The translations under genes and the position numbers were made by a program. A stretch of 64,000 nt of DNA from NCBI GenBank assembly GCA_031213475.1, contig JARUPZ010000023.1:8078157-8142156 (forward strand), written 5' to 3'. Source of the DNA: Nereocystis luetkeana. Its lineage: Eukaryota > Sar > Phaeophyceae > Laminariales > Laminariaceae. The notes beneath the pieces were generated by a model. That model did no database searches. It was given only the letters and a program-made list of their open reading frames with translations, and was not told where the DNA came from. Below, piece by piece: positions 41,096-64,000 of the stretch (within the stretch, counting starts at the first letter, position 1; the number at the start of each line of letters is the position of its first letter).

Positions 41096-41551
41096 CTACT
41101 CGAAACCGAACCCAAACGAAAACACTGTATCGCTGCGAAACTCGATGGTCTTGTTCCTCTCTGCTGCCGCTGCTGCTGCTGGGGCGGCGGCGACAGCGGC
41201 GGCGGCTGTTGCCGTCGCCCTCGCCTCCCGTTCTTCTGCTTCTTCTTCCCCCCCCGCTGGATGACTACCAACACCACCACCAACACACTCCCCAACACCG
41301 CCACCGTCAAAACCGTCATCATCACCACCACCAACACCACCATCATCATCATCAATATGACGGTCGAAGTCGTCGTCGTAGTAGCAGAAGCAGGCGATGA
41401 TGTAGCGCACTCCCCTGAGGAGAGGGTCCCCCCCGTGGAGAATGCCTCCTTCGAAGGAAAGCGCGTGGCCTTCGGGGGGGCGGAGGGGGCGACACAGACA
41501 CGGGAAAAACGTCCCCCCACCGGTGTACTCGCCCAGCCCGTTGAGCGCGAT
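41096..41551 (-). CDS. SET-2OG fusion gene, exon 13 (terminal): oxygenase active-site half
   Basis: Residues 1175-1325 and stop. Starts IALNGLGEYTGGGTFFPCL; contains the distal iron ligand H1213 in ILHGGDP and the 2-oxoglutarate-binding R1223 in GVRYI, ten residues later as usual. Then an acidic and Gly/Ala-rich tail ending in FSFGFGFE. Acceptor TTTTTGCAG (minus strand), preceded by a C-rich tract that belongs to an R1 repeat. Confidence 0.9.
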   Translation of the reverse strand: MALNGLGEYTGGGTFFPCLCRPLRPPEGHALSFEGGILHGGDPLLRGVRYIIACFCYYDDDFDRHIDDDDGGVGGGDDDGFDGGGVGECVGGGVGSHPAGGEEEAEEREARATATAAAAVAAAPAAAAAAERNKTIEFRSDTVFSFGFGFE

Positions 41552-44415
41552 CTGCAAAAATCCAAGAGAGGGAGGAGGCGGGGGGGGGAGGGGGGGGAGG
41601 GGGGGTACTCTATACCATGCATGGCCGTAGTCGTATGACCATGGACCCTCGCATCCCTACAATGCCGGGTAGAAGCATGTCGGGTTTCCACCGACCAGGC
41701 AGATATTGCTTGCACCATACGCGAAGCGCCGTGAGGTGCTCGGCGAGTCGCATGACGGGTGAGCTGCATCCTACTATGAACCGCTTGTGAGGCGGACTTG
41801 CATATGGATGACAGCTTCAATGCTCAATGATATAATTTACTTTCCGGCGTGGCTACTTCCAGAGGGGGTTGTGTGGAGAGAACCATACATAAACTCGTAA
41901 CACATCAGTGGGTATACATGGGGAGGGGGGAGGACCAAGAGCACGAACAAATGAACTTGTATTACGTGATACGGCAGTAGGTGGTATTTACAGCAACTTT
42001 TTGTCGCGGATCAAAGTTTGGGGGAAGGGGGGGGGGGGGGGGGGGGCGTGCTCATTTGTTGCTTGCCTTAGTCATTTGACCATTGACCACGCATCCCTTT
42101 CGAGACGGGGCACCGTTCCTGTACTCCTAACAGAGACACCTCTAACATTTGGGCGCTCATTACGTTGTTTCCACATGTTACATACCAGGTATACACTTTT
42201 TGCTAGTCTTATCCCCTTCCTGTTTGGCCGCCTGTGGCCACCACTCCTATTAATAGGATAGCGACCGTTTTCTCGCTGTTATCTAGTGTGTCAAACTCCT
42301 CCATGTCACATTCGTCCATTTCCCTCATCTCCTCTTTTGACACATCCCGTTTCTCCTTGTACATTTCACATTTTACTACCATGTGAGTTCTACTCTCTAT
42401 TGCTTTGCCACAGCAATTGTTTGCCGCGGATCAGAGTTTGAGGGGGGGGGGGGGGGGGAGGAAGCGGCATGGCGGGAAAGAGGGAGAGAAAGTCAGTGGG
42501 TAACAAGGGCAGCCATGTATGGTGACCGACGACGGCCTGTTCCATGCGCCGCCCCTAACAGGTCAGGAAGGAAACAAAAAAAAGTATACAACGAAAAACA
42601 ATAAATTCGCGCGGAGCGGGCCCTTCTCATGACGTATGCTTTAAAAATACCATACTATGTCACACGGCAGGGCAGGGACAATAGAGCTCTCCACGGAGTT
42701 CTACTGCGCACGAAGCCGAAACTCGCCGGGGGGGGGGTTAGTACCAAGCGAACCCCAAGCATGGAAAAAATCAATGCCTGTCAGGAGGCGGAGGCAGGCC
42801 GCCGCCCCCGTGACCCCCGCCCCGATTGAACAGACCACACGCCCTGCAAGCCCCGCCAGAACACCGGCGCAATAACATGTAAAATGAAGGGGCGAGGGGG
42901 GGGGGGGTCCTTCAAGTGTCGGCGGATGGGGGGGGCGGGGGAGAGGGGGTGGTGGTGGTGGTGGTGGTGGTAGTGGTGGTGGTGGTGGTGGTGGTATTTT
43001 TTTCACTGCTGCTACTGCTGCCTGTTTGTTGCTACTGCTGCAGCTGCTGCTGCTGCTACTGCTACTACTGCTACTGCTATTGCTGCTGCTGCCGCTGCTA
43101 CTCTGCTAATGCTACTGCTGCTAGTGCTGTCGCCGGTGTTGCTACTGCTACTGCTACTACTCCTGCCGCTGTTGCCGCTAGTACTATATTATTGCTACTA
43201 CAATACTGTCACAACTGCAGCTACTACTACTACTACCACTGCCACCACCACTACTTGCTCACCGTGAAGGAGTGGGTGGACTGGTCGCGGTGCAGCGGAA
43301 GATGCCGCTGCTTCCCCTCCTCGTACCTCACGATGAACGCGTCGTGAACGGAAACCCTCTCAGCGCCTCCTCGAAGCCCAAAGTGATCGGCGAGCGCCGG
43401 AAGAAGGCGCTCGCTGTGTGTGTTGTTGCATCCATTCATCGATCGGTTAGCTGGGTAGGTTGATTTTTTGGGTTGGGTGGTCGGTCATATTGAACACCGC
43501 GGACAGACAGATATTGATCTATCTATCTATCTATCTAATTATCTATCTATCTACTCTATATATCTATCTGTCTATCTATCTATCTATCTATCTATCTACT
43601 CTAGTTCTTCACCTGCCGTTAAGGGAGGTTGTGCAGGATCTGCGCAGCACGGATCCAACCAAGGAATCGTGTGCTACTGTAGATCGTACAGATCATACAG
43701 ACCCCGCCCCCGCAACATGAGCCAGATCACACAGATCATCCAAAAATCGGGAACAGATATGCCTCGAAAGGATCTACATCACCGACTGGCGGAGGTGTGG
43801 ATTACTGTCGTTGGTTGGTTAGTTGGATATAAAAGTAGGTTGGTTGGTTGGTTGGTTGGTTGGTTGGTTAGTTGATAATGAATGGTTGGCCGATTAAGTT
43901 AGTGTTTTTGGGTGGTGGGGTGGGTTGGTTCGTCGAGGGAAGAAAGGAAGGAAAGACACCAGCGCCGCAATACGAGGCAATGTAAGTGTTGGGGGCAATG
44001 TAGTCGATGTCATGCACGGCCGTAGTTACATTACCATAGGCCCTCGCATCCCTGCAATGCCTAAGACGGAGCGTGTCGGGTTTTCACCGACCAGGCAGAC
44101 GTTGTCGGCACCAAGCGCGGAGCGCCGTGAGGTGTTCGGCAAGTCGCATGAAGAGGGAGGTGCATCCTACCGAGGAACGCTTGTGAGGCGCACTTGCACA
44201 GGGGCAGCTTCAATGAGTTTATTTAATTTGCGGTGTCGCCATCTCCAGAGATAGCAATGGTGGCACTATGTAAATGTCTCTTGGGTGTCTTACCATCAAC
44301 ACTACGTGATGCGAGCATTCCCACTTGTGCGGAGCAAAGGTTCTGCACCCCGCACCCAATGATCTATAACTCGATCGCCAGCTGTGACCGACCGCCAAAC
44401 AAACACAACAACAGC

Positions 44416-44462
<47 letters not shown>

Positions 44463-47400
44463 AAACGGTATCCTGGGTGTCTAGCTTACGTTAGTGAGCG
44501 GCTTGTCTGCCAGTGTCGTTGTCAACCGACGCCAACCCAACCTATATATATATATATATACTATAATTTATTTTCCCGGGGGGGGGTACACTCATATGAT
44601 GCATGGCCATAGTCGTAGGACCTACGGGTGGCGTTGGTGGTACGCGTTTAAAGCACTAGAAGCAACAACTTCAACCAGCGACACAAAGCAGCACCAAGTG
44701 CTGGGCTCTGCTCAGGTTACGAGGCCGTCTAACAAAACCACCTAAACTAACCACCTCAACCAAACCAACCGAATCAAACCAAACAAAACCAAGCAACCAC
44801 ACACTCAGGTCAGGCAAGGAAGCGGGGTCGAGCAAAACAGAACCGCCAGGGGGTAAAAATGCACAAACCATAAAACGACCCCCCCCCCCCCCCCCCCCCC
44901 CAACACACGAAAACACACAGAGAACAGCACCCGAAACCAAAAACACGCCACCTCATCGTCTGCGAATCCCTGCTCTGACCTCAGGAGCGAGCGGGACCGT
45001 GGGAGTAAACAAACACCGATCCCCCTAGAAACAAAAGACACCCCATCGTCTACAAAACCCCCATCCGGCCTCACGACCCACAGTCGGGCGGGGGACCGTA
45101 CGGGCAGGTAAACACCGACCCCTCCCCCCACCCGCCAAAAAACGCAATCCCATCGTCCCAAAAAAACTACCTGACCCGAGGAGCGAGCGAGACCGTGCGG
45201 GGGAAAATAAACACCCACCCCCTCCAAAAAAAACAAAAAACGAACAAACTAAACGCCATAACATCGGCTGCGAAACCTCGCTCTGACCTCAGGAGCGAGC
45301 GGAACCACGGCAGCACGGTCTCCTTCAACGCGTGCACCGGGAGGTCGGTCGTGGGCACGGCGTAGTGTCGGGAGGTGGTCCAGCCTCCGTTCGCCTGCAT
45401 TATGTTTTTTTTCGGTCAAAAAATGCGCCGATCGATCGACCGGCCGACCGACCGACCGACCGATCAAGCGGAGAAAAGCAACCGCAAGCGAGCAGGCGAA
45501 TGTTGATGGCGACGGTCGAATCAATGCGCTGACCGACCAATCAAGCGGGAAGAGTGACCGTAAACGATTATTATAGTCTGACGGCGAAAGGCAACGGTCA
45601 AATCAGTGCACCCACCGACCAAGCAAGCGGGAAAAGGAACCAAAAGCGAAGAGCCTTAAGGTTTAAATCGTAGCGCAACGAGCTTTTTGTTTTTAGTTAA
45701 ATCAGTGCACCGACCGTCCAGGCGAGCGCGGGAAAAGCAACCGCAAACGAGTACGAAGTCCAACGTTAGCGAAGGGTGAACGCTACGAGCAATTTGCTTC
45801 AGGAAAAACCAGTTGCACCGATGGACCAAAAGCAGGCGGGGAAGATTTTATCCATTAAAAACGAGCAGTCTATATCGTTCATGGTATAACGCAACAAGCA
45901 TATGTCAAACCTCGATGCGCACACCGGACCGACTGATCAAGCGGGGGAAAGTATTACGGGGGACCATAGTTAATAGGATTAAATATTGTTAGTAAAAATA
46001 GGTAAATACATAGGTTTTTATGTATACCATAGGCCCTATTAACTATGGTCCCCCGTAATAATCGAAAACGAGTACCGGGTACCTGGTATACCGTATAGAT
46101 AGCGCACCGAAATAATACACAGCCGTGAAAGGTCGAAACTATGTCAGAAACAGTACTGCAACTGAAAAAAGAAAAAGAAGCGGAGTTTGATATTTCCAAA
46201 AGGATATTCAGTTGCTCTTATGTTTTTTTCCCGGACGGGCTCGCCCCTTAACCTGTGTGCCGAAACTATCCCTTTCTTGATAGAGGGTCAAAAACTTACC
46301 AGTAGCTATCTATCCTCACCAGTATTCACTGACTTTGACGTTCGTGTATCTTTTTTCATTTTAACTTCCATTCAAATGTCCTGGGATGATTTTCAGAGTC
46401 GACTTTTCTCCAAAAACTAGGGGGACGCACTCTTTCATAGAATGTGTATGGCGTGCCTGCCGTATCCATCCAGTGTGATGACATGGCATTACATTGCCTA
46501 CTCTGCTTACGGCGTGCCAACTGTTGAAGCATCTCTGTGACGCGGTTTTGTGACCACATAACTTGTACCTCTCTAGGATGAAAGAATCGGCACGGACATT
46601 GGTTGTGCTGGATGTCGACGGGTAGAAATAACGGTTTAATATGAAGAACATATACAGACACCGCCAACGAAAATGGGGGCTTTGGGAAGGTCTGATCGAG
46701 ATATTTCCGTAGACTTTTTGCTCGTCGCTCGGCGACTGGTTGCTCTCTTCCCCCCTGTCGAGAAAATCAGCTTTGAAGTTCGTCCGAGTAGGGTGTGTGT
46801 TATCTTCTATCCCCCAGTGTGATATCATATACGGCCCTCTGGCCAGAAATATAAGGAGCGTTCTAGTCTCCATGTTGACATCTAACCGTTCCTTGTATCA
46901 ACGCACAGAACGGCGTAGTACACGTTTCGAGGGTTTTCGTCGAAGATCATGAACGAAGCCCCCAAAAAAAGAAATTATTACGGGGGACTATAGTTAATAG
47001 GACCTATGGTACACATAAAAAACTAGATATTTAGCAATTTCTAGTAACAATATTTGGTCCTATTAACTATGGTCCCCCGTAATAGTGAAAAAAAAAGATA
47101 AACTCATCAGGAATGTTTCGTTCGGCGTTGAAAGAAGGTGAGGGAATCGATCGTTCCATGGTAAAAAAAAACAACAGCACTTTTTCGTTGAGGTCACTAG
47201 ATCAATGCACCGACCAAACAGGCGGGAAAAGGTGAACTGTTCATGATATATATACACACGAGCCGCGTTATTGGTAAACGCACATACCGAGTGACCGACG
47301 GAAAAAATCAAGCGAACCGACGGAAAACGTAGAAACAAAGGTTATGGCAGCGCACCCGGGGGTATAGAAGGCGTTCGGCATGTCGTCTTGACATCAACGG

Positions 47401-50400
47401 CAACAACAGCGTGAACAGCAACGACGACGTCGACGGCCATCACCAACACCACACAACCACCACTACCACCACCGGCACCGCCACCACCACCACCCACTAC
47501 AGCACCATCACCACCACCACCAACACCACCAACATCACCACCACCACCGCCACCACCACCACCATCACCGCCGCCGCCACCACCACCACCATCACCGCCG
47601 CCGCCACCACCACCACCACCACCGTCGCCACCACCACCACCCCCGCCACCACCACCGCCACCGCCACCGCCAACACTACCAATCACTCCATCTTCCCACC
47701 ACTAACACCCATTATCGGCAACATCAACAACTAAAACGTCAACCCTACTCCTATAATTTTCATCCTATTATGAGACATTAGGCACACCTATTGCCCACGT
47801 ATCATCTAGTCACACCTGCGCGTATTTTTCGGCCGCGGCAATGACTCCGCGGCATTCCTCCCCCGACAGCACGGGCGCTCTGCTCATGAAGATGTCGGGA
47901 CCACCACCGGGGGTCGACTAGTAGCCGCGGCAAGAGCGTTGTTTTTTCAGGCGTCGCAAGCAGGGCAGGTGCACGCACAAAAGCGCGCAACGATTTACGG
48001 GACACGCCACAGGATGGAACGGCATGACACCATACGGGACGGCGCGATAGGGACGAACACAGGTCACGGAAACAACGAAACGTACACAGGATGGGACAGG
48101 ACCGGACGGGACGGGATGTCATGGCACCGGGGCGGGGAATCGACACGGGAAGACATGGATCGGGATAACACAACACGGCACGGGATGGCATGATAACGGC
48201 ATGCCACGGGGTGGGGCAACAAGGCATGGGACGGTATGGCACGGGACGACAGCATATGGGACGGTATGGCACGGGACGGGGCGCGAAGGGAAAACGAGAT
48301 ACAGCGCGGAAAAGGCACGCAAAAACGAAACGGGCGCAACACAGGAAGGGACGGTAAGGGACGGTAAGGGACGAGACGGGACGGGACAAAAACGCAGAGA
48401 TATGGCAGCGCACGGCAGCGCACGGAAAATCGAAACAAGCGCACAGACAAGGCGCACGCGGTTGAAGCAGACGGACCAGGACGGGAGGGGCCCAGGTCGA
48501 TCACCTCTCTCTGGAGCTGGCGCGCGTGGGACGTCAACAACAAAACCAACGAAAACCTCTAAAACATTATCGAAATATCTCAAAGATATATCCAAAATAT
48601 ATATTATCGATACAACATATATAAAAATACAATAACTGAGCTTTATTTTTATTTTTGTAGACTCCAAAATATGGGGGGGAAAGTAGTGTCGAAATGTCAC
48701 ACCTCAAAACGGTCGTACCCGCCCCAGTCGCCCGCAGCCGCCGACGCCTCCGTCTCCGCCTCCGCCTCTGCTGCCACCGCCGCTGCCGCCGCCGGCGTCA
48801 ACCATCCGAGACTCGCAGCCAGCTGGACCCTCGACGGGGCCCCGACACCCATCGGCCGGTACGCCCCCTCCTTCTCCGCCTGCTCTCGAAGGGCCCGATG
48901 GGACGGCGCCTCGTGGAAACCCCTGAGTGCGTTTCACACGCACAGTCGTCGTCATTAATCGTCATCGCCATCAACGTAGTCGATGCAAAAAAAAAACAAA
49001 AAAAACGATTGGAGGGTTGGCAGCGCGGGGGGGGGGGGGGTGGGAGGGGAGGGATGCTCATCCGTCCGAGGGGCGGAATAGCGGGGGGTGGGGTGTAGGG
49101 GGTAAGGGGTTGGGTGGAGGGGGGAATGGGGGCGAGGTGCTGGAGATGATCGGGTTCCCTTCGGACAGCTATATAAAACCTTTTGTTTTCAATAATGTGA
49201 GATATCCGGTCGGAAAAGTTGTTCGGTCGGGTATTTTAGTTGAGCGAGACGGCGGCGGTGGCGGTGGGTCGAGAGGACGAGAAGGAAAGGGAGTAGGTGA
49301 AGCAGGAGGAGAAGGAGGAGGAGGGGGAGCACGAGGACGAGGACGAGTAGAATGGGAAGGGAGAGGGAAGGGGGGCGGACTCATTTGCTGCTTGCCTTAG
49401 TCAATTGCCCATCGACCACGCATCCCTTTCGAGACGGAGCATGGGGGAGGGGGGTCTATACCCTTTCTTTCCCTATCCCACTCCCCTCACCCCTCCCTGT
49501 TCTGAGCACCCAAGTCATCCAATCATCGCGCCCCCCTCCGACGCCCCTTCCTCCGTCTCTTTCCCTCCCCTCCTTCTTCTCAAAAACCAAACCAAACCAA
49601 ACCAAACCAAACCAAACCAAACCAAACCAAACCAAACCGCACCTTTTCCACGCTTTGCATGCTTCTCTGAAACGCCCCGCCGCCAGCAGCGCTACCCCTA
49701 CGCCGTGGAGAGCGTCGCCCGCTACGGTTGCCGCCGGTGACTCGTCATCTTCTCTAGAAGGTCTAATCCCCCCCGATGGCCGAGACGGCACGGCGGAGGA
49801 GGAGGAGGAATAGGAAGAAGGGAGGAGCGTTGGGGTGGCAACCGCTTGCCGGTACAACCCCAGGGCGCTGTCATGTCTGCCCTCTTCCAAAGCTTGGTCC
49901 GCCAGAATCTGCCACAGCGGCGAACACACAAGGTGGCAAAACAAGCGCAACAACAACGACAACAACATGGACAACAGCGGGAAGCAGAAGTGACCCGAAA
50001 CAAGAATTGCTGTCGATTAAAGTTGCTGTCGAATAGGGCTGTTGTCGAACTGGAGTTGCTGCCCACTATAGTTGTTGTCTATGAAAGAGACGTAGCCGTT
50101 TGATGGCTGTTGTCGATGATTATAGAGTCGTCGTCAACTCATAATCGTTGCCGATGAGAGCCGTTGCCCATTAGAGCCGTTGTCGATTCAACTTGTGTCG
50201 ACTTGAACAAGTTGTTGTCGACTAGAGTTGCTCGATCGATTCGAAGTGGTCGTCGGTGAGAGCAGTACCCTTCCTTACCTTCAGCATATCGCGCCCAAGC
50301 GAACATCGACCTCCCCCAGACTCCAGCAGGCAGCGCGGGCAGCTGCAAACGCCACCACCACCACCACCACCACCACCACCACCACCACTGGCCGCAGGGA

Positions 50401-53278
50401 ACCTTAACGACAGCTCTCGCCTGCGGTCCTCAACGTTCTGGCCAAGGGCGACGTAGGGAGCGAAGAGCTCCCCGCCCCTGCGAACGCCACGCAAAGTTAT
50501 CAAACCCACGCGGAGAGCCGACTGCCCGCCGATCCGTAATTCCCGCGTTGTTCTTCTTGCTGGGAGTGCGCTCTGGCTCCCGGCGGAGGCTTTCGGGTTT
50601 ATCGCGGAAGAGAGGAAGGGGGCGACGGACAGCGGGGCGACAGGGGCCGTGTAGCCGGGAGGGGGGAGATTTGAGGTGGGGGGTGAGGGTGCGTGTGGGG
50701 GCAGGATTGGGGTGGGGGGAGTGGGGGTAGGGGGGTGGGGCGGGGGGGGCGGAGCGGAGGTGAGAGTGGAGATGCGAGTGGTAGGTGGGGGTTGGAGGTG
50801 AGCGTGGGGGCGGGGTTGGGGTGGGGATAGGGGGGGAGTGTACTCGTGTCATGCATGGCCGTAGTCGTATGACCGTCGGGTCTTGTGGGATACCATCGAA
50901 CACGAGGCATGCGCCGCAGCAGATCGAGAGCCAATAAAGATATGAGCAGCCCACGTTGATCTGAGTCTGAAGATAGCGAGATCGTCTACGGTAGTGTTGT
51001 CGTTCGAAGGACTGCTTGCCAGCTTGTCCTGTCTGCTTGCTTGCTCGATCGGTTGATTATTTTGGTCGAGAGATGAAAGAGAGAGAGAAGAGACACAAGG
51101 ATGGGGAGGGGAGGGGGGGAGGGAGGGACTAGCTGTGTTTTGTCGCACTACGGAATATTAGGCAATACGATTCCCCGCACAGGCTGCCCATTCCCCCACG
51201 GCAGTCCCCCTCGCACACCCCCTTCGCACGAGAGGAGCAGGCGTTTCTCCGCTCGTTTCCCCCCCCTGATGCCACTATACAATTAACACAGACGAGCCAT
51301 CTTCGTGAAGCGTGGGTGACCTCCCCCCACTCCCCCACTGATCAAAGTGGGCTCGCAGGATCATCTCGATAGGATGCAGCTCACCCTTCATGCGATCCGC
51401 CGAACACCTCACGTGTCGCCTAGCGCTTGGTGCAAGCAACGTCTGCCTGGTCGGTAAAAACCCGACGTGCTCCGTCCCGGCCCCGCAGGAATGCGATGGT
51501 CTACGGCCATACGACTACGGCCATGCATGACATGAGTACACCCCCCTCCACCCCCCTGATATCGCCTAAAAGTACGAGACAACGCAGAGCGCGACGCGGA
51601 GCCCCCCCCCCCCCCCCCCCCGGCTTTACCGTACCTCTACTGCCGCCGCCTCTATCACTGTCGCTGCTGACGATGCCGCCGTCGTCGCCGTCGATGGGTG
51701 CAGACCAAGTAGCGCCGTGTTCAGCAGACACCGTCACTGCCCCCACTGCAGTTTCCCCTCGGTTTAATGCCAGGCGTTCCATCGGGGAGGCGGTCAGGTT
51801 GGGGGCTAGGGAGGCCTCGAGCTGCACGTTCGGCACGCAGCTGTGCTCCGGGGTGCAGGCAGGGGGGAGGAGTCCAACCACCGACAGAGGCGGGAACGGG
51901 CTGGAAAGGGTGTGGACGCACGCAGGGGGGGCACGCAGATGGACACACACAGGGAGACAAAGATGGAGGAAGAGGCAGACAGAGAGAGATAAAAAAACGG
52001 GGGGAAAGGAGCGCGAGAGGGAGAGGGAGAGCGTGGGGAGAGCATGGAGCGCGCGGGGGGGGGGGGGGGACTCATTATCATTCATGGCCGTATTAGTATG
52101 AAAAAAAACAGCGGCAAAAGAGAGGGGCAGATGTGCAGACATAGAGAGAGGGAAAGAGAGGGAGGACAGAGGACGCACACACCGCGCATGCGGGATTGGG
52201 ACTGGACAAGACGACGGCGTGAGAAAGAGATCGCACCGCGTGAGCAAGAAAAAACGTTGCGTGGGGCCGGCTAGCTGGCGCAGAGCGGACGTCATGGCGC
52301 ACGAGGCAACAAACGTAACAGCGCTCCAAATCAAGAAAATAAAAGTATCCCAAGAAAAGTATCACAAGAAAACATATGACGAAGCACGGTCAAGCCATGG
52401 CGTCCGGAACCCAGTGCTCCAGTTCTGCAGCAATGACTTTTCAGAGCTAGCCAAAGAGAGAGGCGAGCGATTGCCATGCTTTCGCGCGGTCTGGTGATTT
52501 TGGGCCGGGAGAGCCGTCGTGGGGAAGGCAGGCAGACATGTAAATCGAGCAGGCAGCGCACACGAAACCCCTTCCCGTGAATGGTTCCCGGCCCCTCGGA
52601 AAAGCACAGAGTCCCTTACCCGGCCGCCGCCCCCGCTGCCGCCGCCGCGGACGCCTGCACGACTCTACAAAGCCCCCTCTCCTTCACGATGTCTTGCTCG
52701 TCGTCGTCGCTAGTGCCATCGCCGCTACCGCCACCGCCCCCACCCCCGCCCGCACCTCCGCCCCATTCCGGGCCCGCTCCGCCCTCTCCAGCTGCAGCTC
52801 GAAGCCCCGATCTTCCAGCACCGCTTGCTCCTCCTGCTCCTCCTCTCCCCCCCTCTCCTCCCTCGCCCCCGCTTCCTCCTCCTCCCCCGGCCCCTCCCCC
52901 TTCCTCTCGTCCTCCTACTCCTCCTCCTCCCTCTCCCCCCCGTCCCCCCCCTGTCCAGGAATCCCCGCCACCAACCCGACTTTCTACAGAGCGCTTCAAC
53001 CCCACCCCTGTCGCCCCCTCCCTCATCCCTGCCGCCCCCGCCCCTGCCACTGCTGCTGCCGCTACCACTTCCGCCGAAGGTATGTCATCCCCGCCCTCCG
53101 CGCCCCCGAACGGCCCGGCCCGGTCGATTGCTGGAGCCAACCATGGGAAGGCGCGGGACTTGTCCTCCGCGCTCGCCCGCACTAACAGCGAGCAGTAGCT
53201 GAGGCACACATACAAGGAGACAGGAAGAGAGGGGCAGAAATACAGACAAACAGACAGAGAGAGACAGAGAGACAGAGG

Positions 53279-53314
<36 letters not shown>

Positions 53315-56300
53315 GGCAGAAAAACAGACAGACGGCAGACAGACAGACAGGTCAGACAGACAGGACACACAGGCAGGCAGGACAGACAGACACCAAACAA
53401 ACAGACGATAGACAGACAGACACGTCAGACAGACAGGACAGACGAACACACAGGACAGACAGGCAGACAGACATAGATATAGATAAATAGATAGAGGTAG
53501 AGAGATTGGCAGGCAGGAGGGTTGAGGGAGGGCGAAGGGCGATCCAAGAGCTAAGGCCAAGGGTGCATTGGAAGTGTCATCGAGGAGAGTTGGCGGATTG
53601 GGGTGGAGCGAGGTGGAGCGGATCGCAGCGGACGCAAACAAGAGCGAAATGCAATGGGGGCGAGGGTGGGTGGGTGGGAGGGGGGGGGAAGGGGGAGGAG
53701 GGGAGATAAAGGGGGGGAAGAGAGGGGGGGGTTAAGAAAGGGGGAAAGGAGGAGGGGTGTACTCATGTCATGCATGGTCGTAGTCGTATGACCATAGAGT
53801 AGAGGGGGGGGGGATACTCATGATCATGCATGGCCGCATTCGTATGACCATAGACTCTTGCAACCCTACAATGCCGGGACGGAGCACGCCGGGAAGCGAG
53901 CAATCGATGTCGATGCTGCAGTCGGCGGAACTTTCGGGCCCAGCCTTAGCGCCACAGTAGGCTCTCCACACAAGATGGGGGTGGCTCGCGACGGAAGCAA
54001 ACCGTCCTGGGAAGGCGGGGTGAGCGTGTGCGTGTTTTTGCGTGTCGGGCGGTAGGCTAGCCTTGTTGATCCCTCTCATAGTTAGGAAGCCTCAAAAAAA
54101 GCGCCGGGAACCACTTGGCGGACGGCAACCATGGTGCGCGCGATGAGCGAGCACAGCGTCCAGGAGCTCCCATCCTGCCATCATGGAACGGTCACAATGC
54201 CGCGATGGTTATGGCTGCGAACACGGCAAGCCCTGAACCTCCACCTCCACCCCCCGCGTGCAACCTTCACCGCGGCCTGTGCCAACAGCCCACAACATCG
54301 TACGTAGGTCTGTTCATTTTCCGCAGCCCAAAGGACGGAACTCTGCCGCTCCGGCCCCTCCACTCCCCCCTCGCCCTCCCACCCCACCCCCTTTCCCCGC
54401 CTCACTCTCCCCTCACCTACCACCCCTCCCTTCCCTCTAACCCCCGCCTGCAGTTCCAATCGCATCACCTGACAAGGGGAGAGGGCACCGTTATCGGTGC
54501 CAAGTGCCTACCCAGCGCTCGTACTACCCGGAGGAAGAAGTCAAACGAAAGCGTCCGCTCAATCTCCCCTTCCGTTGGAAGACCGGACGACCCTCCCCCC
54601 CCTCCCTCTCCTCTTCCTCTTCCCCCTCCTTCTCCTCCTCCTCTTCCTCCTCCTGCTCCCTCCCGCCCTCTCCCTTTTCCTTGCAGGCGATTCAAAAGCC
54701 CCGCACTCAGCATAGACCACGCCTCCTCCGCCTGCGTTTTGCAGTTTTTTTTCCGGCAGGGGTTTCGATCGAATTAAGGAGGTTTTCGCGTTGGTTCACA
54801 ATACAAATTGGGCCCGATGTTCTTCTGAGAGGAGCCTCGAAAAGCAAAACTAGCAACAGCGTATTTCTACCCCCGCGCAGCATTTCTCAAAAGCGAGTGC
54901 CGCAATTGGTTCTTCTCTTCCTACAGTATGATGGAAGGCGCTTTCCGAGCGCTGGATTTCAGTGGCAATTTCTAAGCTCCTCGAAATTATCGCCGGGGGC
55001 TAAAAGTGCTAGAAATGTGGGTTTTAGTGGTTTCTTCCTTGTTATTCTACCCATTTCCCTCTCTGCTCTACTCCTTCCATCCCTCCCTCCTCCTCTCCCT
55101 CCCTCCCTCCCTCCCTCTCTCCCTCCCTCCCTTCCTCCCTCCCTCCCTCCCTCGCCGCCTCCCCCCCTCCTCCCTTTCCCCGCGCACTACCCCCCGTCCG
55201 TTCCGTCTACAAACCCCACCTCTTCCAATGAAACACCGTTCCATTTCGCCGCGGCCCCTTCCCCCCCTTCCCCCCCCCTTCCTCCTTCTCTTCCCCCCTC
55301 CTCTCCTTCTCCACCTCCTCCTCCGCCTCCCCCTCCCGTTGCCTTCCAGTCCTGCCCCGGCAAGCAATCGCCCCAGCCCGCGAACGACTCCAGGTTTCGG
55401 CAGCCCTCGGTCGAGGACAAGGCTGCCGCTATGGCCGCGGCGGCGATGAGGTAGGTCTCGTTCGTGTGGACGGCGTAGCGACGAAATTCAAACAACGGGC
55501 TGTTTGTGGGGTGGACAGGGGGGGGGGCGGGGGGTGTACTTGTTGTCGTGCATGGCCGTAGTCGTATGACGATAGGAAGGGGGGGGGGGGGGGTGTCGCA
55601 GGCGGGGTGGGCGTGGTGGATAGGGGAGGAAAGATTAAATATTTCTCGGGGCGGCAGAAAGCATGCTTTCGAGATGATACGGCGATGATCGTCCCGAGAT
55701 ACATGACTACACGACCCATACAACGGCAACCGGAGCGGGGGTGGGGGTGGGGGTGGGGGGGGGGGTCAAGCTCTCGGGAGAGGATCTCTCTGTTTCTCTT
55801 CTATCTTGCTTTCGTTCTGTCCCTCTCCATCTCACGCTATCTTTCTGTTTTTCTCTCTCTCTGTCCCTGGCTCTCTCTCTCTCACTATCCCTAATTATTA
55901 TTTGTTCACCGACTGGCATTGCCGGTGGCGGGGCACAAGAGCACGCCACCGGCAGGGTTGGTACACATCTATCATCTCAAAAGAACAAAGCACAAACACA
56001 GAAGAACGAGATATCGCCAGCCATAAGTCTTACCAGGTACCAGCTACCAGCTACCTGGGTACAAAGAGCACGCAGCGAGTTTGAGCATCAACCAACCAAT
56101 CCGATCGCACTCACAGCTGACGAATTTGTACGACATACAGTATTTTGAACCAAAAATCGGTCGAACTCACGGCTGACTGAATTTCTACAAAATAAACAAT
56201 TAGTAAAACATCGAGGAATCATTTTCCGGAAACACCCATCACCTGCCCTCCTCGCTCCCCCCGACGCAGATCAGTCCGTGGCCGCCTACCAGCGCCGCAT

Positions 56301-59300
56301 CTCGACACACGACAGAGCAGTACAGATCGTCGCATGGCGCTCCCCTCCTGCACCTGTAGCAGCCGCCGCTCTCTTCTTCTCCCCCCCTCTCCTGACGCTC
56401 CTCCTCCTCCTCTTTCCCCTCCTCCTCCCCTGTCCCCCACCCACCACGCCCTCCAACCCCAGCCCTTTCTTCGACCCCCTCCCCACCCCCCTCTTGCCGT
56501 TCCTTCTCTTCTCCCACGTGCCTAGTTCCACCTCCACCACCACCACCACCGCCCCTACTGTAACTACTACTTCTACTGCCCATACAGTCGGGACTTATTT
56601 TCAAGACGTCACGCCCATCGTCTCGGGCGTTCCCATTGTCACCGTTCCCGCCGCCGCCATCTCCACCACCGCGGTCTCCGCCGGCCCCGTTCCTACCCCT
56701 TGGCGGGTCACCACTTACACCGCTAGCATGTATTTCCTCCCCTTCCTCCTGCTTCTGCTGCGGCTGCTGCTGCTGCTGCGGCTCTCGTAAAGCCGGGAGG
56801 TTCGGAAGGCTGGAAGCCGGCGCGCGGGCGACTGTCATGCGTCGATGTTTGGTGCCCACCGCCACCATTACCGCGCTGCCGCCGCCGCTGTTTACGTTGC
56901 TGTCGCCGCTACGGTTACTAGTGTCGTTACCGTTTCCCACAAAGTTACCGATTTTGTTACCGTTTTCGTTGCCGATTTTGATAACGATTTTATTACCGAT
57001 ACCGTTACCGTTGCCGTTTCCGCTGCCACTACCGTTACAATAGCTGCTATCGGTATCGCTACCGATACCGTTACTGTCTCGACGCCTTTTCTTCGTGGTG
57101 ACTGTAGTGGCGGTGGTAGTGGTGTTGCGAGGAGGTTTTGGGGGGATGAGCCCTTCCAGCATGGCGAGCTGGGTGGCCTCCGTTCCGAGGAAGTGGTGAC
57201 AAGTCGCGCAGACTAAGATCTATTCATACGTACGTGCGAGGAACAATGCACAGGAAAGACAGCCAACAAACAAACGAACGAACGAACGAAGAAACACAGA
57301 AAGATATACTAAGTTAATAAATACACAAAGACACGAACGAGCATCAACACCACAAGCGAACTATAACTAAATAACAAGCAAACCAACAAGCAAACCAAAG
57401 AACAAAATACAACTACAAGTGAATGAAAAAAAGCTGAAAGCAAACGGCGGCTGAGTGCTACTTTTCTTTTTTGTTTTGCAGGAAACGCTCATCGTCCACG
57501 ACGGGGGGGAGGTGTACTCGATACCATGCATGGCCATAGTCGCATGACCATAGACCCTCGCATCTCCACAATGCCGGGAAGGGGGGGGGGGTGTACTCGA
57601 TATCACGCATGGCCGTAGCCGTATGGCCAGATACCCTCGCATCCCTACAATGCCGGGACGGAGCACGTCGGGTTTTCACCGACCAGGCAGGCATTGCTTG
57701 CCCCAAGCGCGAAGCGAAACGTGAGTTGTTCGGCATGAAGGGTGAGCTGGATCGTACTAAGAACCTCTTGTGAGGCGGAATTGCACATGGACGACAGCTT
57801 CAATGAGTTATTTTTTTCCGGTGTGGGGGGGCTGATGGGGTGTGGTGGGTTTGTTATATTGGGAAGTATGGTCAAGCAAGACACGCCCACACTGATAGGG
57901 GAGGCGACGCGGGACGAGTCGAAGCACAGTCGAAATTCGCCCCACGGTGCGTGTGTCCGTGCTCTGCAGCTACCAACATCTTCGTAAATACATGCAAGTG
58001 CCGTTGGGGCTTCACTCACATTAATACACCACGAAACGGTCTACCTGGTGTACATTGCCGGAAAGAGTGTTACGAGGCAAGGCTTGCCTCATTGGACCCA
58101 CGTAGCCTACTCAATAGATTGCTAGTTTACCAGGCGTCTACTCTGTTAATACCAGTATCGCGCGATGGCTTTGGGGCCTTTAAAGGAAACATTGACGGGG
58201 GGGGGGGGGGGGGAAGACGATGTTCAGCATCGACCACACGGAAGTACCTGGCAGGGACTACCAATAGGGGTCAGGGATTAGAGATGCATACATTTTGTGT
58301 CCGAACTACTAACTAGACCTCGATTTGTTTGGTCAAACTCAGCCTGAAATTACTATTGTGTACTGGTATGATACAACACGATGCAAAGATGCGAGGACGG
58401 TCGTTCGACGCGCACGCCAGGAAAATGCTACCCACAGCAGCATGGGCGTACTGCCGTACTCCTCTGCCGGAACCTTGCGTGCTTACACCAATAACAAGAC
58501 CGCAGCTCTTGGTCTCTGTGTCCACTACATCACGTACATAGAAAACGGTGGAAGGGTTGAAGGCCGGCCCTCTCGTCTCACCTGGTTTCGGTTGGCCAAT
58601 GGTTGGTGCACAAGTATCGGCGCCGCCGTTCCCACGACCTCGCCCTTCTCCAGCGCTCTTGCTGTGCACACCTGGACCAACCGCCGGCGACATCGTGATG
58701 ATTGCCATCATTGGACCGAGAGAGTACGAGTATATAGAACTACATACTTGGATCACAACCCCTGAGCGTGCTCGGTTGGTGCATCCCTGGCCTCTCAGAG
58801 CTCCCACTTCCAAACCGCCTCCTTTCATTACTTGCCGGACCTTTCCAGCAGTTCTTGGTTTTCTCGGTCATTTCTTCCTTTCTTCTTCTTTCGTTTCGTG
58901 TGCGTGCGTGTTCTCCGAGCACGGCATCGCGGGAGGACCCGGCACCGTCGCGGGTGCCAGCGGGTGCTGGCGGGTAGAGGGGGGGTTGCAAGGAGCGCGG
59001 TCGCCGCTTTCGTGCCTAGGCGTCGCGTGTGCCTCGAGACACGAGGGATGCATGACCGGGCTTTGTCTGGCTTCGATTTATGATTGTTGATAGAGTATGT
59101 ACGAGTTTATAAAGGTCGTTCGGGAGGGCAAGATAATATACAAGCGGTGCTTATTTTTGCGACCACGCTGAAGTTGAAAAAGGGAGGTGTGCAGTTTGAA
59201 CACCAACTTTATCGAGCTGGCGAACGAAGGCCACGGTGAGCACCGGGCTTCACGCGGGGCGGTCGACGGGGCTGATTGTGGCAGAGAGTGATGAAAGCTT

Positions 59301-60695
59301 TACCCGGACCGAATCGGTAGCGAGGTGGTCGCGAGAGGGGCGGGCGGCGTACGAGGCTGAGAGAGAAGCTCTTCTGTGCGATATATATATTTTTTTTTTT
59401 CGACCGGGTGTAAGGTGTTACAATCAGGCAGAAAATATTACACGAGAGGGGACGGGGATTTTTTTTCCTTTCCGAGTTTTCGGTTTCATTTTCATTGTGT
59501 TGTTTTTGCTGCTGTGCCGTGCTGTGCTTTCGCTTCTTCGTACATACAGTACAGCATAGAGCATATCGAAAGAAGAAAATAAGTACAGGCAGTAGTACCC
59601 TACCTGGGGTGTATGTACGTACGTACGACATCAGCGAAGCGTATATGTGGCATCCAAGCTGACGTCGGAGCTGTGTTTTCCTGAAGCATGGCGGCGGGAC
59701 TCTTGGCATTATCAAGTCGCCGGTTTGCAACTACGATCCTTGAAACACTAAACTCAATCAATCGTGGACCTCTGTTCGCTTCGCATAATTTGATGTACTT
59801 TTTCCCTTCCTGAGCGAGCGTAGCGGGCGGCGTAGGCCGCCCGCGGAGCGAAGCGCCTTGTATACAGTAGTACCCTACATGTTATCCAGAATTGGGCGTT
59901 AGTAATTTCAGGCTGAGTTTCTCCAAAAAATCAAGATTTTACAGCTATTATACGTATGTACGTACGTAAGCATTTGTGCTCGGCCAGGAAAGCCACTCTA
60001 TATCCTATATAATAGCCTTTAAGAGCCTACGCATAAGCTTTACGTTGAGCCGCGAGCCCTAGCCGAAGTAGGAGATTCGTAACTGTTGCTACTGCTGTCG
60101 CGTACGGTGTACCAGGTACCGGTTAATTAAGTTCATTACCCCCGTACTTCCACGTCCTGTACCGGTACTGCAGCATGCTGCAGTACTACTGTACAGCAGT
60201 ACGTAGTACACTGCGGTCGTCCATTGCTGGCACACAACTGGATTAGGGAGGTGCCCCCCCCCCCCTTGTACGTGCAGGTGGCTGTCGCTGCTCACCGCAC
60301 TCTCCTGTACTGGTGCCAGTAGACCACATGCATGATATTTACGTGGACACCGGTGTGAAGTTTACTTCCCGGCGTCTGTTTTCCCAGAACTACTCCTCCA
60401 GACGTACGAAGTACCTCGAGTCACACCGCAGAGTTGTTCCCTGCTCCTGCCTTGTTGTGCTGTTCCTGCGTTGTGGTTTTGCTTTGGCTCCCCAGCATTG
60501 CTGTAAACACGGGACCGCACACCAGCACGCAGCTACCCTACGAGTACGCTACCCTGTCAGAATAGGAGAGATGGGGACACTCTCAGCACAGCAAGGAGTA
60601 CGTGATTACATCATACGCACCGACCAGCCCTTGACAGCTGTCTCACGACGTTCTGCTGCCAAGCTATCCTCGAGTTCCAGCATCCTCTCAGGCAT
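41096..60695 (-). CDS. SET-MYND-TPR-2OG/Fe(II) oxygenase fusion protein, 13 exons (whole gene span)
   Basis: Joining 13 phase-compatible exons gives about 1325 codons. Order: SET N-lobe (TARALEKGEVVGTAAPILVHQ, ~28-48); split MYND-like finger C59-x2-C62, C342-x2-C345, C356-x3-C360, H369-x3-C373; helical/SET-I-like region (382-755); variant NHSC box EHSCVPN (773-779); SET C-part with Y868 and a CSCPRC post-SET cluster; TPR-like helices (927-1040); 2OG/Fe(II) oxygenase domain (~1059-1240) with H1165-x-D1167, H1213 and R1223. The N-terminal half resembles plant ATXR2/SMYD lysine methyltransferases, the C-terminal half resembles P4H-superfamily oxygenases of oomycetes and fungi. Exon 10 carries the end of the TPR region and the beginning of the oxygenase, so the fusion does not rest on joining separate exons. 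Substrates are unknown. Confidence 0.78.
41575..41840 (+). repeat. R1 dispersed repeat, near full copy abutting the exon 13 acceptor
   Basis: G-rich tract, GGTACTCTATACC, GCATGGCCGTAGTCGTATG, CCGACCAGGCAGATATTGC, GAGTCGCATGACGGGTGAGC, GATGACAGCTTCAATG. Relative to the minus-strand gene it is antisense, so its G-rich end becomes the C-rich tract within ~30-60 bases of the acceptor at 41551. Confidence 0.88.
42000..42180 (+). repeat. R2 dispersed repeat
   Basis: G-run, then GTGCTCATTTGTTGCTTGCC, TTAGTCATTTGACCATTGACC, CGAGACGGGGCACCG and AACATTTGGGCG. Very similar to 31127-31250. It lies in intron 12 of the SET-2OG gene. Confidence 0.8.
42939..43250. repeat. (GGT)n and (CTG/CTA)n trinucleotide tract
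   Basis: A GGT/GTG run (42939-42990) followed by about 240 bases of CTGCTACTGCTACTACTG-type repeats, ending just before exon 12. The long valine, cysteine and glycine open frames here are repeat artefacts. Confidence 0.85.
43263..43413 (-). CDS. SET-2OG fusion gene, exon 12: HxD iron-binding motif
   Basis: Residues 1124-1174. Acceptor CACACACAG, one leading base; donor TTCACG|GTGAGC (phase 0). Encodes LLPALADHFGLRGG, VHDAFIVRYE and LPLHRDQSTHSFT. H1165 and D1167 are the two N-terminal iron ligands of a 2OG/Fe(II) dioxygenase; V-x-D-A-F-(I/V)-V-x-Y upstream is typical of the P4H-like family. Confidence 0.92.
43505..43602. repeat. (CTAT)n microsatellite
   Basis: CTAT/ATCT repeats with short interruptions in intron 11. 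Followed at 43838-43870 by a (GGTT)n run. Confidence 0.9.
43995..44250 (+). repeat. R1 dispersed repeat, near full copy
   Basis: GCACGGCCGTAGTTACATTACC, CTCGCATCCCTGCAATGCC, CACCGACCAGGCAGACGTTG, AGCGCCGTGAGGTGTTCGGC, ending GGTGTCGCCATCTCCAGAG. Antisense to the host gene, in intron 11. Confidence 0.85.
44404..44465. repeat. (AAC)n microsatellite
   Basis: About 20 AAC units in intron 11; codes only for an artefactual polyasparagine frame. Confidence 0.95.
44585..44625 (+). repeat. R1 fragment
   Basis: G-run, GTACACTCATATG, GCATGGCCATAGTCGTAGG; only the start of the R1 core is present. Confidence 0.65.
44970..45310 (-). repeat. ~100 bp tandem units containing the exon 11 end and donor
   Basis: On the minus strand, units beginning GG(T/A)(C/T)CC(G/C)CTCGCTCC recur at about 45305, 45200, 45103 and 44997. 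The first is the true 3' end of exon 11 (CTCCTGAG|GTCAGAG). The last keeps the identical CTCCTGAG-GTCAGAG string inside the intron. The unit seems to have been amplified from the exon-intron boundary. Confidence 0.75.
45288..45394 (-). CDS. SET-2OG fusion gene, exon 11: oxygenase N-terminal signature
   Basis: Residues 1089-1124. Acceptor ATAATGCAG, donor CTGAG|GTCAGA (phase 2). Encodes ANGGWTTSRHYAVPTTDLPV and HALKETVLPWFRSLL. G-G-W-T-T-x-R-H-x-x-x-P-T-T-D is a strong signature of one 2OG/Fe(II) oxygenase family known from oomycetes and fungi. Confidence 0.9.
45952..46060. mobile_element. Palindromic MITE, copy 6
   Basis: TATTACGGGGGACCATAGTT ... CCCCCGTAATA, 109 bp, intact at both ends, in intron 10. 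Best-preserved copy together with 46976-47084. Confidence 0.93.
46976..47084. mobile_element. Palindromic MITE, copy 7 (inverted relative to copy 6)
   Basis: Same ends, 109 bp, but the asymmetric centre is in the opposite direction (ACACATAAAAAACTAG precedes TAACAATATTTGG). About 0.9 kb from copy 6. TA flanks both ends. Confidence 0.93.
47455..47690. repeat. (CAC)n/(ACC)n trinucleotide tract
   Basis: About 235 bases of CAC/ACC with GCC variants in intron 10. Apparent polythreonine (plus) and polyglycine (minus) frames are artefacts. Confidence 0.9.
48000..48400. repeat. Degenerate GGGACGG(T)ATGGCAC repeats
   Basis: Irregular units such as GGGACGGTATGGCACGGGAC repeated over ~400 bases in intron 10. 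No coding pattern. Confidence 0.65.
48703..48922 (-). CDS. SET-2OG fusion gene, exon 10: TPR end and oxygenase start (bridge exon)
   Basis: Residues 1015-1088. Acceptor CGCACTCAG, one leading base; donor TTTGAG|GTGTGA (phase 0). GFHEAPSHRALREQAEKEGAY completes the TPR-like unit begun in exon 9 (ACKAWKR), and VQLAASLGWLTPAAAAAVAA EAEAE is the helix that precedes GGW in the oxygenase family. Both modules therefore share one exon. The donor GTGTGA is not ideal; GG|GTACGA slightly upstream would change phase. Confidence 0.8.
49378..49445 (+). repeat. R2 dispersed repeat, partial
   Basis: GGACTCATTTGCTGCTTGCC, TTAGTCAATTGCCCATCGACC, CCCTTTCGAGACGGAGC. Antisense in intron 9. Confidence 0.8.
49584..49640. 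repeat. (AAACC)n array abutting the exon 9 donor
   Basis: Roughly eleven AAACC units; on the transcribed (minus) strand the intron starts GTGCGG followed at once by (TTTGG)n. Confidence 0.92.
49643..49908 (-). CDS. SET-2OG fusion gene, exon 9: TPR-like region
   Basis: Residues 927-1015. Acceptor CTGTGGCAG, donor AAAAG|GTGCGG (phase 2). ILADQALEEGRHDSALGLYR QAV resembles a TPR helix pair; a Ser/Pro-rich loop follows (GGIRPSREDDES); then ALHGVGVALLAAGRFREACKAWKR, a second TPR-type pair. SMYD-type SET proteins carry a C-terminal helical/TPR domain at the same position. Confidence 0.85.
49985..50235. repeat. Degenerate GTTGTCGA-TAGAGTTGCTG repeat
   Basis: About ten irregular 20-25 base units (GTTGCTGTCGA, GTTGTCGATTAGAG) in intron 8. 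No exon seen. Confidence 0.7.
50279..50521 (-). CDS. SET-2OG fusion gene, exon 8: SET C-part and post-SET
   Basis: Residues 846-926. Acceptor GGCGGGCAG, donor CTGAAG|GTAAGG (phase 0). SALRVGLITLRGVRRGGELF APYVAL matches the SET strand-turn usually read as (R)DI..GEEL..SY, with Y868 kept. NVEDRRRELSLRF, a 12-Gly insert, then VCSCPRC, the zinc-binding post-SET cysteines of SMYD-like proteins. Confidence 0.9.
50835..50882 (+). repeat. R1 fragment
   Basis: GTGTACTCGTGTC, GCATGGCCGTAGTCGTATGACC after a ~180 base G-rich tract; antisense in intron 7. Confidence 0.75.
51355..51550 (-). repeat. R1 dispersed repeat behind exon 7 donor
   Basis: Reverse copy: CAGCTCACCCTTCATGCG, GTCTGCCTGGTCGG, CGACGTGCTCCGTCCCGG, CATACGACTACGGCCATGC, GAGTACACCCCCC. 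Sense relative to the minus-strand gene and about 80 bases after the exon 7 donor. Confidence 0.85.
51630..51900 (-). CDS. SET-2OG fusion gene, exon 7: NHSC-type box
   Basis: Residues 755-845. Acceptor CTTTCCAG with one leading base, donor GGTACG|GTAAAG (phase 0). PFPPLSVVGLLPPACTPEHS then CVPNVQLEASL. The SET box N-H-S-C-x-P-N is present as E773-H-S-C-V-P-N779, so the first Asn, which normally contacts the cofactor, is Glu. RLALNRGETAVGAVTVS then an acidic loop follows. Confidence 0.85.
52053..52105 (+). repeat. R1 fragment
   Basis: G-run, GACTCATTATCATTCATGGCC, GTATTAGTATG; antisense in intron 6, about 160 bases from the exon 7 acceptor. Confidence 0.65.
52620..53198 (-). CDS. SET-2OG fusion gene, exon 6: low-complexity inner SET region
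   Basis: Residues 562-755. Acceptor GTGCCTCAG, one leading base; donor GCCGG|GTAAGG (phase 2). Encodes YCSLLVRASAEDKSRAFPWL, APAIDRAGPFGG, then a long Gly/Glu/Ala-rich stretch, and finally KERGLCRVVQASAAAAA. In ATXR2/SMYD this interval carries the short strand before the NHSC box; here it is inflated by low complexity. Phase fits both neighbours; sequence similarity is weak, so this is the least certain internal exon. Confidence 0.6.
53230..53475. repeat. (CAGA)n microsatellite
   Basis: CAGACAGACAGA runs with variants across ~245 bases in intron 5, just upstream (minus strand) of exon 6. Creates artefactual serine/leucine/cysteine frames. Confidence 0.92.
53755..53895 (+). repeat. Two R1 starts in tandem
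   Basis: GTGTACTCATGTCATGCATGG at ~53757 and GATACTCATGATCATGCATGG at ~53813; the second continues to CTTGCAACCCTACAATGCCGGGACGGAGCAC. A nested or tandem insertion. Antisense in intron 5. Confidence 0.8.
54469..54731 (-). CDS. SET-2OG fusion gene, exon 5
   Basis: Residues 475-562. Acceptor AAAACGCAG, donor GTCAG|GTGATG (phase 2). AEEAWSMLSAGLLNRLQGKG, a Gly/Glu-rich insert, EGEIERTLSFDFFLRVVRAL, GRHLAPITVPSPLV. The pattern of a helix followed by N/H-x-x-x-I-x-V-P-(S/H)-P-L resembles the ATXR2 region between zinc finger and NHSC box. Confidence 0.75.
55075..55160. repeat. (CCCT)n-rich tract
   Basis: CCTCCCTCCCTC repeats in intron 4 (purine-rich on the transcribed strand). Confidence 0.9.
55220..55499 (-). 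CDS. SET-2OG fusion gene, exon 4
   Basis: Residues 381-474. Acceptor CACAAACAG, one leading base; donor GAAGAG|GTGGGG (phase 0, less certain because several GT sites occur in G-rich sequence). SPLFEFRRYAVHTNETYLIA AAAIAAAL is typical of the helix after the MYND finger in SMYD/ATXR2 proteins (F..H...TNE..LLAA). Then FAGWGDCLPGQDW and a Gly/Glu-rich stretch. The plus strand is also open here (an exon-like frame ending at 55454), but only the minus reading shows family similarity and phase fit. Confidence 0.78.
55510..55580 (+). repeat. R1 fragment abutting the exon 4 acceptor
   Basis: A G-rich tract, GTGTACTTGTTGTC, GCATGGCCGTAGTCGTATGAC. On the transcribed minus strand its C-rich end is the pyrimidine tract of the acceptor at 55499. 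Confidence 0.8.
56243..57219 (-). CDS. SET-2OG fusion gene, exon 3: split MYND-like zinc finger
   Basis: Residues 56-381. Acceptor ATGAATAG, donor GGCAG|GTGATG (phase 2). ILVCATCHHFLGTEATQLA supplies the first zinc pair (C59, C62). A long insert follows with Asn/Gly/Ile repeats (NGNENGNKIGN type), Q-rich and Gly/Glu-rich parts. CYRCRRGAPCDDLYCSVVCR and HGLIC supply C342, C345, C356, C360, H369 and C373. ATXR2 has the same C-x2-C-(F/H)-F-(I/L)-G opening. The first-pair acceptor choice joins residue Q55 to I56, matching the family N-x-x-x-L-V-C spacing. Confidence 0.82.
57515..57812 (+). repeat. R1: a fragment and a near full copy in tandem
   Basis: GTGTACTCGATACC/GCATGGCCATAGTCGCATGACC at 57512-57580, then a G-run and GTGTACTCGATATCACGCATGG followed by the rest of R1 through GACGACAGCTTCAATGAGTT. 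Antisense in intron 2. Confidence 0.88.
58582..58671 (-). CDS. SET-2OG fusion gene, exon 2: SET N-lobe
   Basis: Residues 26-55. Acceptor TTGGTCCAG, donor AACCAG|GTGAGA (phase 0). VCTARALEKGEVVGTAAPIL VHQPLANRNQ corresponds to the SET opening (V-x-A-x-x-x-x-x-G-E-V-(V/I)...P) and leads straight into the LVCATC zinc pair of exon 3. A stop lies upstream in this frame with no Met, so at least one more 5' exon must exist. Confidence 0.8.
58731..59860 (+). repeat. 1.13 kb interspersed repeat, copy B
   Basis: Nearly identical to 31334-32464, with small indels (one is a TATATATA insertion near 59383). It lies in intron 1 of the SET-2OG gene, antisense to it. Same terminal GC-rich hairpin and CGCCTTG end. 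Confidence 0.87.
60621..60695 (-). CDS. SET-2OG fusion gene, candidate exon 1
   Basis: MPERMLELEDSLAAERRETA VKGWS, 25 codons, donor TGGTCG|GTGCGT in phase 0, matching exon 2. Helical, charged composition contrasts with surrounding sequence, and K-G-W-S followed by V-C-T-A-R is a plausible SET opening. The frame is open upstream through a CAG repeat to another ATG at 60929, so the true start could be earlier, and another exon elsewhere cannot be excluded. Confidence 0.42.
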
Positions 60696-63368: not shown

Positions 63369-64000
63369 AGCCACAGTATCCTCTTGTAGAGCTTAGAAAG
63401 AAGCAGTATGAGTAACGGCGGGAGTGTGAGAAGCGTTCGGGAATAGCTCAATCTTGGGCAGTAACCCGGATAAATACGTTGCTATATTCCCCACCAGCAC
63501 CAGTATTGCACTACCCCGATTAGTTAAAAAAAATCACCGTGCATGTATACACCCGAGTGAAGCAGGAGTTGGCGCATGCTTCGCCCAAAACGCCAGTGAA
63601 GGACCTGATAAACCAGATCAATAAATAATTGCCCACAGACACAAACACGTTAGTTATGGATATCGACCGATCCCGTAAGGCCCTTTGGTTCGGCACAGAG
63701 GTGCGATCGTTTCTCGTTGCTCGGAGAGGGCGCCAGCGTGTTGAACAAAACATTTTCGGAAATCTCTCGACCAGCTATGCTTCCAAATTCGTCCTGTTCG
63801 GCATTGGCAACCTTCGAGTTGTGACGAAGAGTTGAGCACTGAAAAATGATAAGCACCCCTGTGCGAAGCCAAAGCGCTTTACGGCGATCGAGCACGAAGA
63901 TATCATACTCGTACTGTCCTTGTAGTTCGAAAACAAAGGTCGACACGATTTCGACATTCGAAAACCAGGTGCTGCACATAAAATATCTTCAGTTTTCGTT
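63369..64000. other. Window end, unassigned
   Basis: Lower GC than most of the window. A 110-codon minus frame (63650-63979) and a plus frame (63629-63835) overlap. Two ~45 base arms at about 63660-63715 and 63850-63905 are imperfect inverted copies, so both frames read a similar RKALW peptide. Coding status undecided. Confidence 0.35.

Follow-up and report, generated by a model that had tools for sequence, protein, structure and literature searches.

Results

A predicted gene joining a SMYD-type body to a 2OG/Fe(II) oxygenase

The minus-strand gene at 41096-60695 of a 64,000-nucleotide stretch of Nereocystis luetkeana contig JARUPZ010000023.1 (the window, whose positions are used here) is real. 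From its sequence, we lean towards the view that it encodes one protein in which a SMYD-type body, probably without methyl transfer, would serve as a platform delivering a substrate to an active fused oxygenase. The modules recur in the same order at a second locus, the oxygenase ligands are retained in both copies, and residues of the SAM site are changed in both.

The gene model comprises 14 exons with GT-AG borders, running from an ATG at 60695 to a stop at 41096 and encoding 1360 amino acids without an internal stop (Table 1). All 13 junctions are phase-compatible, an agreement that is partly built in, since the model was rebuilt from three-frame translations and GT-AG sites and phase helped to choose the soft exon ends. 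Four ends are soft because they lie in low-complexity sequence, namely the 3' ends of exons 4 and 7 and the 5' ends of exons 5 and 8. The predicted chain consists of a SET N-lobe (exons 1-2), a MYND-type finger (exon 3), I-SET helices (exons 4-5), the SET C-lobe box and post-SET cysteines (exons 7-8), TPR (exons 9-10) and a 2OG/Fe(II) oxygenase (exons 11-14). A preliminary description of the window had given the same strand, coordinates and domain order, all of which are recovered in this independently rebuilt model. The predicted protein is 20% glycine and carries very long low-complexity inserts.

Table 1. Exons of the predicted gene, with intron 10, in window positions.
Feature	Position	Strand	Basis
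Exon 1: beginning of SET N-lobe, with GWS in place of GxG at exon end	60621..60695	-	own model
Exon 2: SET N-lobe VCTARALEKGEVVGTAAPILVHQPLA	58582..58671	-	own model; inside pairwise match to C13
Exon 3: MYND-type finger	56243..57219	-	own model; aligned with C13 and C31
Exon 4: helices following MYND (FEFRRYAVHTNETYLIAAAAIAAALSS), with low-complexity sequence behind them; 3' end soft	55191..55499	-	aligned with C31 and C13
Exon 5: I-SET helices (FDFFLRVVRALGRHLAPITV); 5' end soft	54469..54642	-	own model; aligned with C13 and C31
Exon 6: mostly low-complexity insert	52620..53198	-	own model
Exon 7: SET C-lobe box GLLPPACTPEHSCVPNV, E753 replacing N of NHSC; 3' end soft	51635..51900	-	model and alignment
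Exon 8: SET C-lobe GGELFAPY (Tyr869 kept) and post-SET CSCPRC; 5' end soft	50279..50589	-	model and alignment
Exon 9: TPR	49643..49908	-	TPR_2 and TPR_14, both slightly below Pfam cut-off
Exon 10: end of TPR region and Ala-rich linker; oxygenase not recognisable	48703..48922	-	model, LH3 match, C13 alignment
Intron 10, 785 nt	47918..48702	-	own model
Exon 11: start of oxygenase (PDIFMSRAPVLSGEECRGVIAAAEKYAQ)	47816..47917	-	model and LH3 match
Exon 12: oxygenase (GGWTTSRHYAVPTTDLPV)	45288..45394	-	model and C13 alignment
Exon 13: oxygenase with H1200-x-D1202	43263..43413	-	model and LH3 match
Exon 14: C-terminal half of oxygenase with H1248 and R1258, low-complexity tail, stop	41096..41551	-	model and LH3 match

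An in-frame ATG at 60887 provides an alternative start upstream of 60695. The 64 residues that it would add (60887-60696) contain a hydrophobic stretch (ASLLATATLCCSLAACL), a possible targeting peptide.

Repeats are also found in the introns. Intron 11 holds a short palindromic MITE-like element twice (about 47084-46976 and 46060-45952). Its end sequence matches the genome (at most two mismatches, 465 Mb) at 27,172 forward and 27,236 reverse places, whereas the reversed control gave none in either orientation; many of the places listed lie in facing pairs about 109 bp across. What looks like another repeated element, CTACGGCCATGCATG, is present at 16 places in the window (at most two mismatches) against 0.15 expected from shuffles, for example at 41616, 50850, 51515 and 57604, and several of these places fall inside introns of this gene.

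A diverged second locus with the same order of modules

Searching the genome (465 Mb) with the oxygenase half of the window gene returned the window itself and C13:1670179-1671189, with the next candidate at E 0.338, and the reverse search with the C13 oxygenase returned the same two loci, with the next at E 0.105. Each search scored 12 candidates, so that two loci is a lower bound and distant members may be missed. At the second locus (G000:C13, about 1661854-1671363, plus strand; hereafter C13), the SET N-lobe, both halves of the MYND finger, the SET C-lobe, post-SET cysteines and TPR lie on one strand upstream of the oxygenase, in the order seen in the window gene. Pairwise identity between the two copies is 27% over 377 amino acids in the SET/MYND/TPR half and 45% over 152 amino acids in the oxygenase half, a divergence which suggests that the fusion arrangement is old and has been kept.

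The two parts of C13 lie in overlapping frames. The TPR frame reaches its stop at 1670229, 338 nt beyond 1669891, where the oxygenase frame opens; separate genes there would have to overlap. The module order is thus repeated at an independent locus that leaves no gap for a gene boundary. A phase-compatible GT-AG intron of 67 nt (1669926-1669992) could join the frames, and so could correction of a length error in the assembly, since a long C run occupies 1669915-1670010, in the frame overlap; the sequence does not discriminate between the two.

The oxygenase half retains its ligands

The closest solved structure to the window oxygenase is that of human LH3 (E 1.1e-9 in a PDB search), with H-x-D, H and R aligned. 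The preliminary description had proposed a complete 2OG/Fe(II) oxygenase, and this holds: the ligands are H1200, D1202 and the distal H1248, followed ten residues later by the basic 2OG-binding R1258 (numbers 35 higher than those given earlier, with the same spacing), and all four residues are invariant between the window and C13. The oxygenase half also matches PHROG 61, '2OG-Fe(II) oxygenase', at 3.6e-15. The Pfam 2OG models match neither copy up to E 10, and NCBIfam PKHD-type models reach 0.017 for the window and at best 1.3e-5 for the pair, far under their cut-off. Solved structures matched by the oxygenase are lysyl hydroxylases, prolyl hydroxylases and PiuC; JmjC demethylases are absent up to E 1. 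On the basis of the similarity to LH3 and of the Arg lying ten residues past the distal His, we favour a lysyl-hydroxylase-like reaction, if tentatively as to the residue modified, since the profile also reaches prolyl hydroxylases and PKHD enzymes.

In prokaryote genomes, none of 209 candidate stretches was confirmed, and seven phage records gave weak oxygenase matches at 23-28% identity. Among viral contigs, none of four pattern matches was confirmed with the window oxygenase alone as query, the two-sequence oxygenase profile matched five loci in part (26-40% identity), and none of 40 candidates was confirmed with the SET/MYND profile. The partial matches to IMG/VR contigs (L051-L053) extend over about 56 residues at 40% identity.

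The SET/MYND/TPR half is related to SMYD proteins

A SET domain split by a MYND finger is read from module order and ligand residues both in the window and at C13. All eight candidate zinc ligands are present in the window finger in a C4C2HC pattern: C59/C62, then a low-complexity insert of about 280 residues, C345/C351 (or C342), C356/C360 and H369/C373. No Pfam zf-MYND match was found for this finger (C13 and a third SMYD-like gene, G000:C31:1404421-1410097, hereafter C31, score 15.3 and 15.0 bits against a cut-off of 22.7), and we call it MYND because of its ligand pattern and its alignment with C13 and C31. The Pfam scan gave 20.9 bits for SET (PF00856; cut-off 22.4) in the condensed window protein and 25.7 for TPR_2 (cut-off 27) in the window TPR segment, such that the TPR-like helices C-terminal to the post-SET cysteines are present with scores slightly below the cut-offs. 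Pfam found no useful match in read-through frames of 49200-64000 (two of the three minus-strand frames), and no SET model matched the C13 N-lobe and C-lobe pieces on their own. The domain composition proposed in the preliminary description is borne out in part by these searches, with SET and TPR below cut-off, the zf-MYND and 2OG models of Pfam unmatched, and LH3 and PHROG 61 matched.

Taken alone, the window SET half finds its nearest SMYD structure in the PDB at E 0.47, and the relationship becomes clear when relatives are added. The half is 29% identical to C31 over 227 amino acids, and a three-sequence profile of window, C13 and C31 matches SMYD1 at 2.2e-12 and SMYD3 at 2.5e-10, scores that are helped by the inclusion of the canonical C31 gene. 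The C31 sequence in this profile carries two letter errors, both outside the matched SET stretch.

SAM-site positions are changed in both fusion genes

The third SMYD-like gene, C31, retains the motifs GRG, NHSCRPNC and SY, and genome searches with either oxygenase half (12 candidates each) found no related oxygenase near it. Pairwise and three-way alignments place GWS of the window at the GxG position, where C31 has GRG and C13 falls in an unaligned gap, read by eye as GVP. At the I-SET Asn position the window has His (H530), and C13 and C31 both have Asn. The box described earlier as NHSC-type in fact reads EHSC in the window (E753), PHSC in C13 and NHSC in C31, and at the catalytic Tyr position the three genes have PY (Y869), SW (Trp) and SY, respectively. 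Three of the four positions are thus changed in the window and three of four in C13 (one of them read by eye), as compared with none in C31, the sole comparison sequence with intact motifs. The window GxG change is the least certain of the changed positions, since it lies at the edge of an exon and another choice of splice site could alter it. The NHSC and Tyr columns fall within the profile alignment to SMYD1, and the I-SET Asn column would, from its position, correspond to SMYD2 Asn182.

These positions matter in characterised relatives. In SMYD3, mutation of G15, G17, H206 or Y239 is described as abolishing activity (PMC3136521), and Asn206 and Asn182 of SMYD2 are described as contacting the cofactor through their side chains (PMC3125274). 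A methyl-transfer role is weakened because such SAM-binding and catalytic positions are altered in the two fusion genes but not in C31. The window gene may still have some activity, since it retains His754 and Tyr869, equivalent to SMYD3 His206 and Tyr239; its post-SET cysteines are also kept. Where the preliminary description paired a methyl-transfer module with an oxidative one, the oxidative module stands, its ligands being kept, and the methyl-transfer module is weakened (GWS, EHSC and H530 in the window; PHSC and Trp in C13).

Discussion

One chain or two

The fusion join is probably real, to judge from the sequence of the two loci. Exon 10 had been taken as proof of it, but the LH3 match starts at PDIFM in exon 11, exon 10 has no recognisable oxygenase start, and the only residues that it shares with C13 are a G and an F. 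Support for a SMYD-type module and an oxygenase in one chain comes instead from the diverged C13 locus with the same architecture. That two neighbouring genes, SMYD-like and then oxygenase, were duplicated as a pair seems rather improbable to us. Exon 10 read through gives GAG-GTG-TGA, one more codon and then a stop, with AATAAA at 48653 and 48647 in intron 10, about 44 and 50 nt past that stop, as expected if a gene ended there; against this stand the overlapping frames of C13 and the start of the window oxygenase. The window oxygenase frame has a stop directly before exon 11 and offers an internal Met only (FMSRAPV), and because a start at this Met loses the first strand matching LH3, a separate oxygenase gene would need another 5' exon. 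The same stop and AATAAA sites would also suit a gene that gives two proteins, a SMYD/TPR product stopping after exon 10 and a longer one that includes the oxygenase, which we consider quite improbable: AATAAA is also absent after the final exon (41096 to 40000) and at C13 between TPR and oxygenase (between 1669642 and 1673802), and it may not mark transcript ends in this genome. A promoter/terminator scan of intron 10 returned three promoter-like sites against 0.4 expected and was given no weight, the models being bacterial. A decaying pseudogene would fit the degenerate SET motifs and the glycine-rich inserts, yet 1360 codons of the spliced model without an internal stop, the preserved oxygenase and MYND ligand residues and the existence of two loci make it highly improbable.

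A proposed platform for the oxygenase

In the reading that we prefer, a single transcript would encode a split-SET/MYND/TPR body that probably no longer transfers methyl groups from SAM and would serve instead as a platform for binding substrate. A partner protein, recruited perhaps by the MYND-type finger and TPR, would be handed to the fused, lysyl-hydroxylase-like 2OG/Fe(II) oxygenase, the sole intact-looking catalytic centre, and hydroxylated there on a lysine or proline side chain. The preliminary description had instead suggested coupled modification of one substrate. In a bifunctional enzyme of this kind, lysine methylation by the SET half would persist, perhaps with altered SAM binding, and the oxygenase would hydroxylate or demethylate the methylated protein. 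The Tyr, His and post-SET cysteines kept in the window speak for this, but the GxG, I-SET Asn and NHSC Asn positions are changed in the window, C13 has also lost the Tyr, and the structural matches of the oxygenase point to hydroxylases and PiuC rather than to JmjC demethylases; we regard a bifunctional enzyme as unlikely. A rather unlikely elaboration of the platform reading is that the dead SET lysine channel has been kept as a reader of a lysine or methyl-lysine protein, presented to the oxygenase, so that the fusion would be an intracellular hydroxylysine writer. If so, a pseudo-writer would have become the targeting part of an oxidative writer.

If the platform reading is correct, a SMYD-type body has seemingly traded methyl transfer for a fused oxygenase. 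If the gene is that of a brown alga, such a targeted hydroxylase would add an extra kind of protein modification to the picture of brown algal chromatin. A 2026 survey of that chromatin describes abundant SET proteins, including two lineage-specific families (PMC13076208), and its main text does not contain 'SMYD', 'MYND', 'hydroxylase' or 'oxygenase'. Similarly, 'MYND', '2OG', 'TPR', 'hydroxylase' and 'methyltransferase' are absent from the main text of a paper on Phytophthora fusion proteins, in which 130 predicted fusions were left out as possible gene-prediction artefacts (PMC2705460).

Comparison with known systems

The SMYD-type and oxygenase halves each belong to known kinds. Their combination would be new among the literature matches listed: a SET/MYND/TPR-oxygenase protein was not found among those from the open-licence PubMed Central literature. 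The window gene resembles SMYD1, SMYD2 and SMYD3 in its split SET with inserted MYND, I-SET, post-SET cysteines and helical C-terminal TPR-like part, and both fusion copies differ from them in the changed SAM-site residues, the huge low-complexity inserts and the fused oxygenase. SMYD5, in which we know of no oxygenase, has an insert at the same place in its MYND finger. That insert, between the first and second zinc-ligand pairs, is given as about 28 residues in SMYD5 (PMC9221539), as against about 280 in the window gene.

On the oxygenase side, PKHD-type hydroxylases (YbiX/PiuC) and prolyl 4-hydroxylases are weaker matches to the profile of the oxygenase pair, far below LH3, and have no SET or MYND. 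Leprecan-type prolyl 3-hydroxylases carry TPR ahead of the 2OG domain in one chain and, to our knowledge, no SET or MYND. The closest likeness is to the C-terminal 2OG domain of LH3 (PLOD3), which is preceded by glycosyltransferase domains, whereas the window gene has SET/MYND/TPR in their place.
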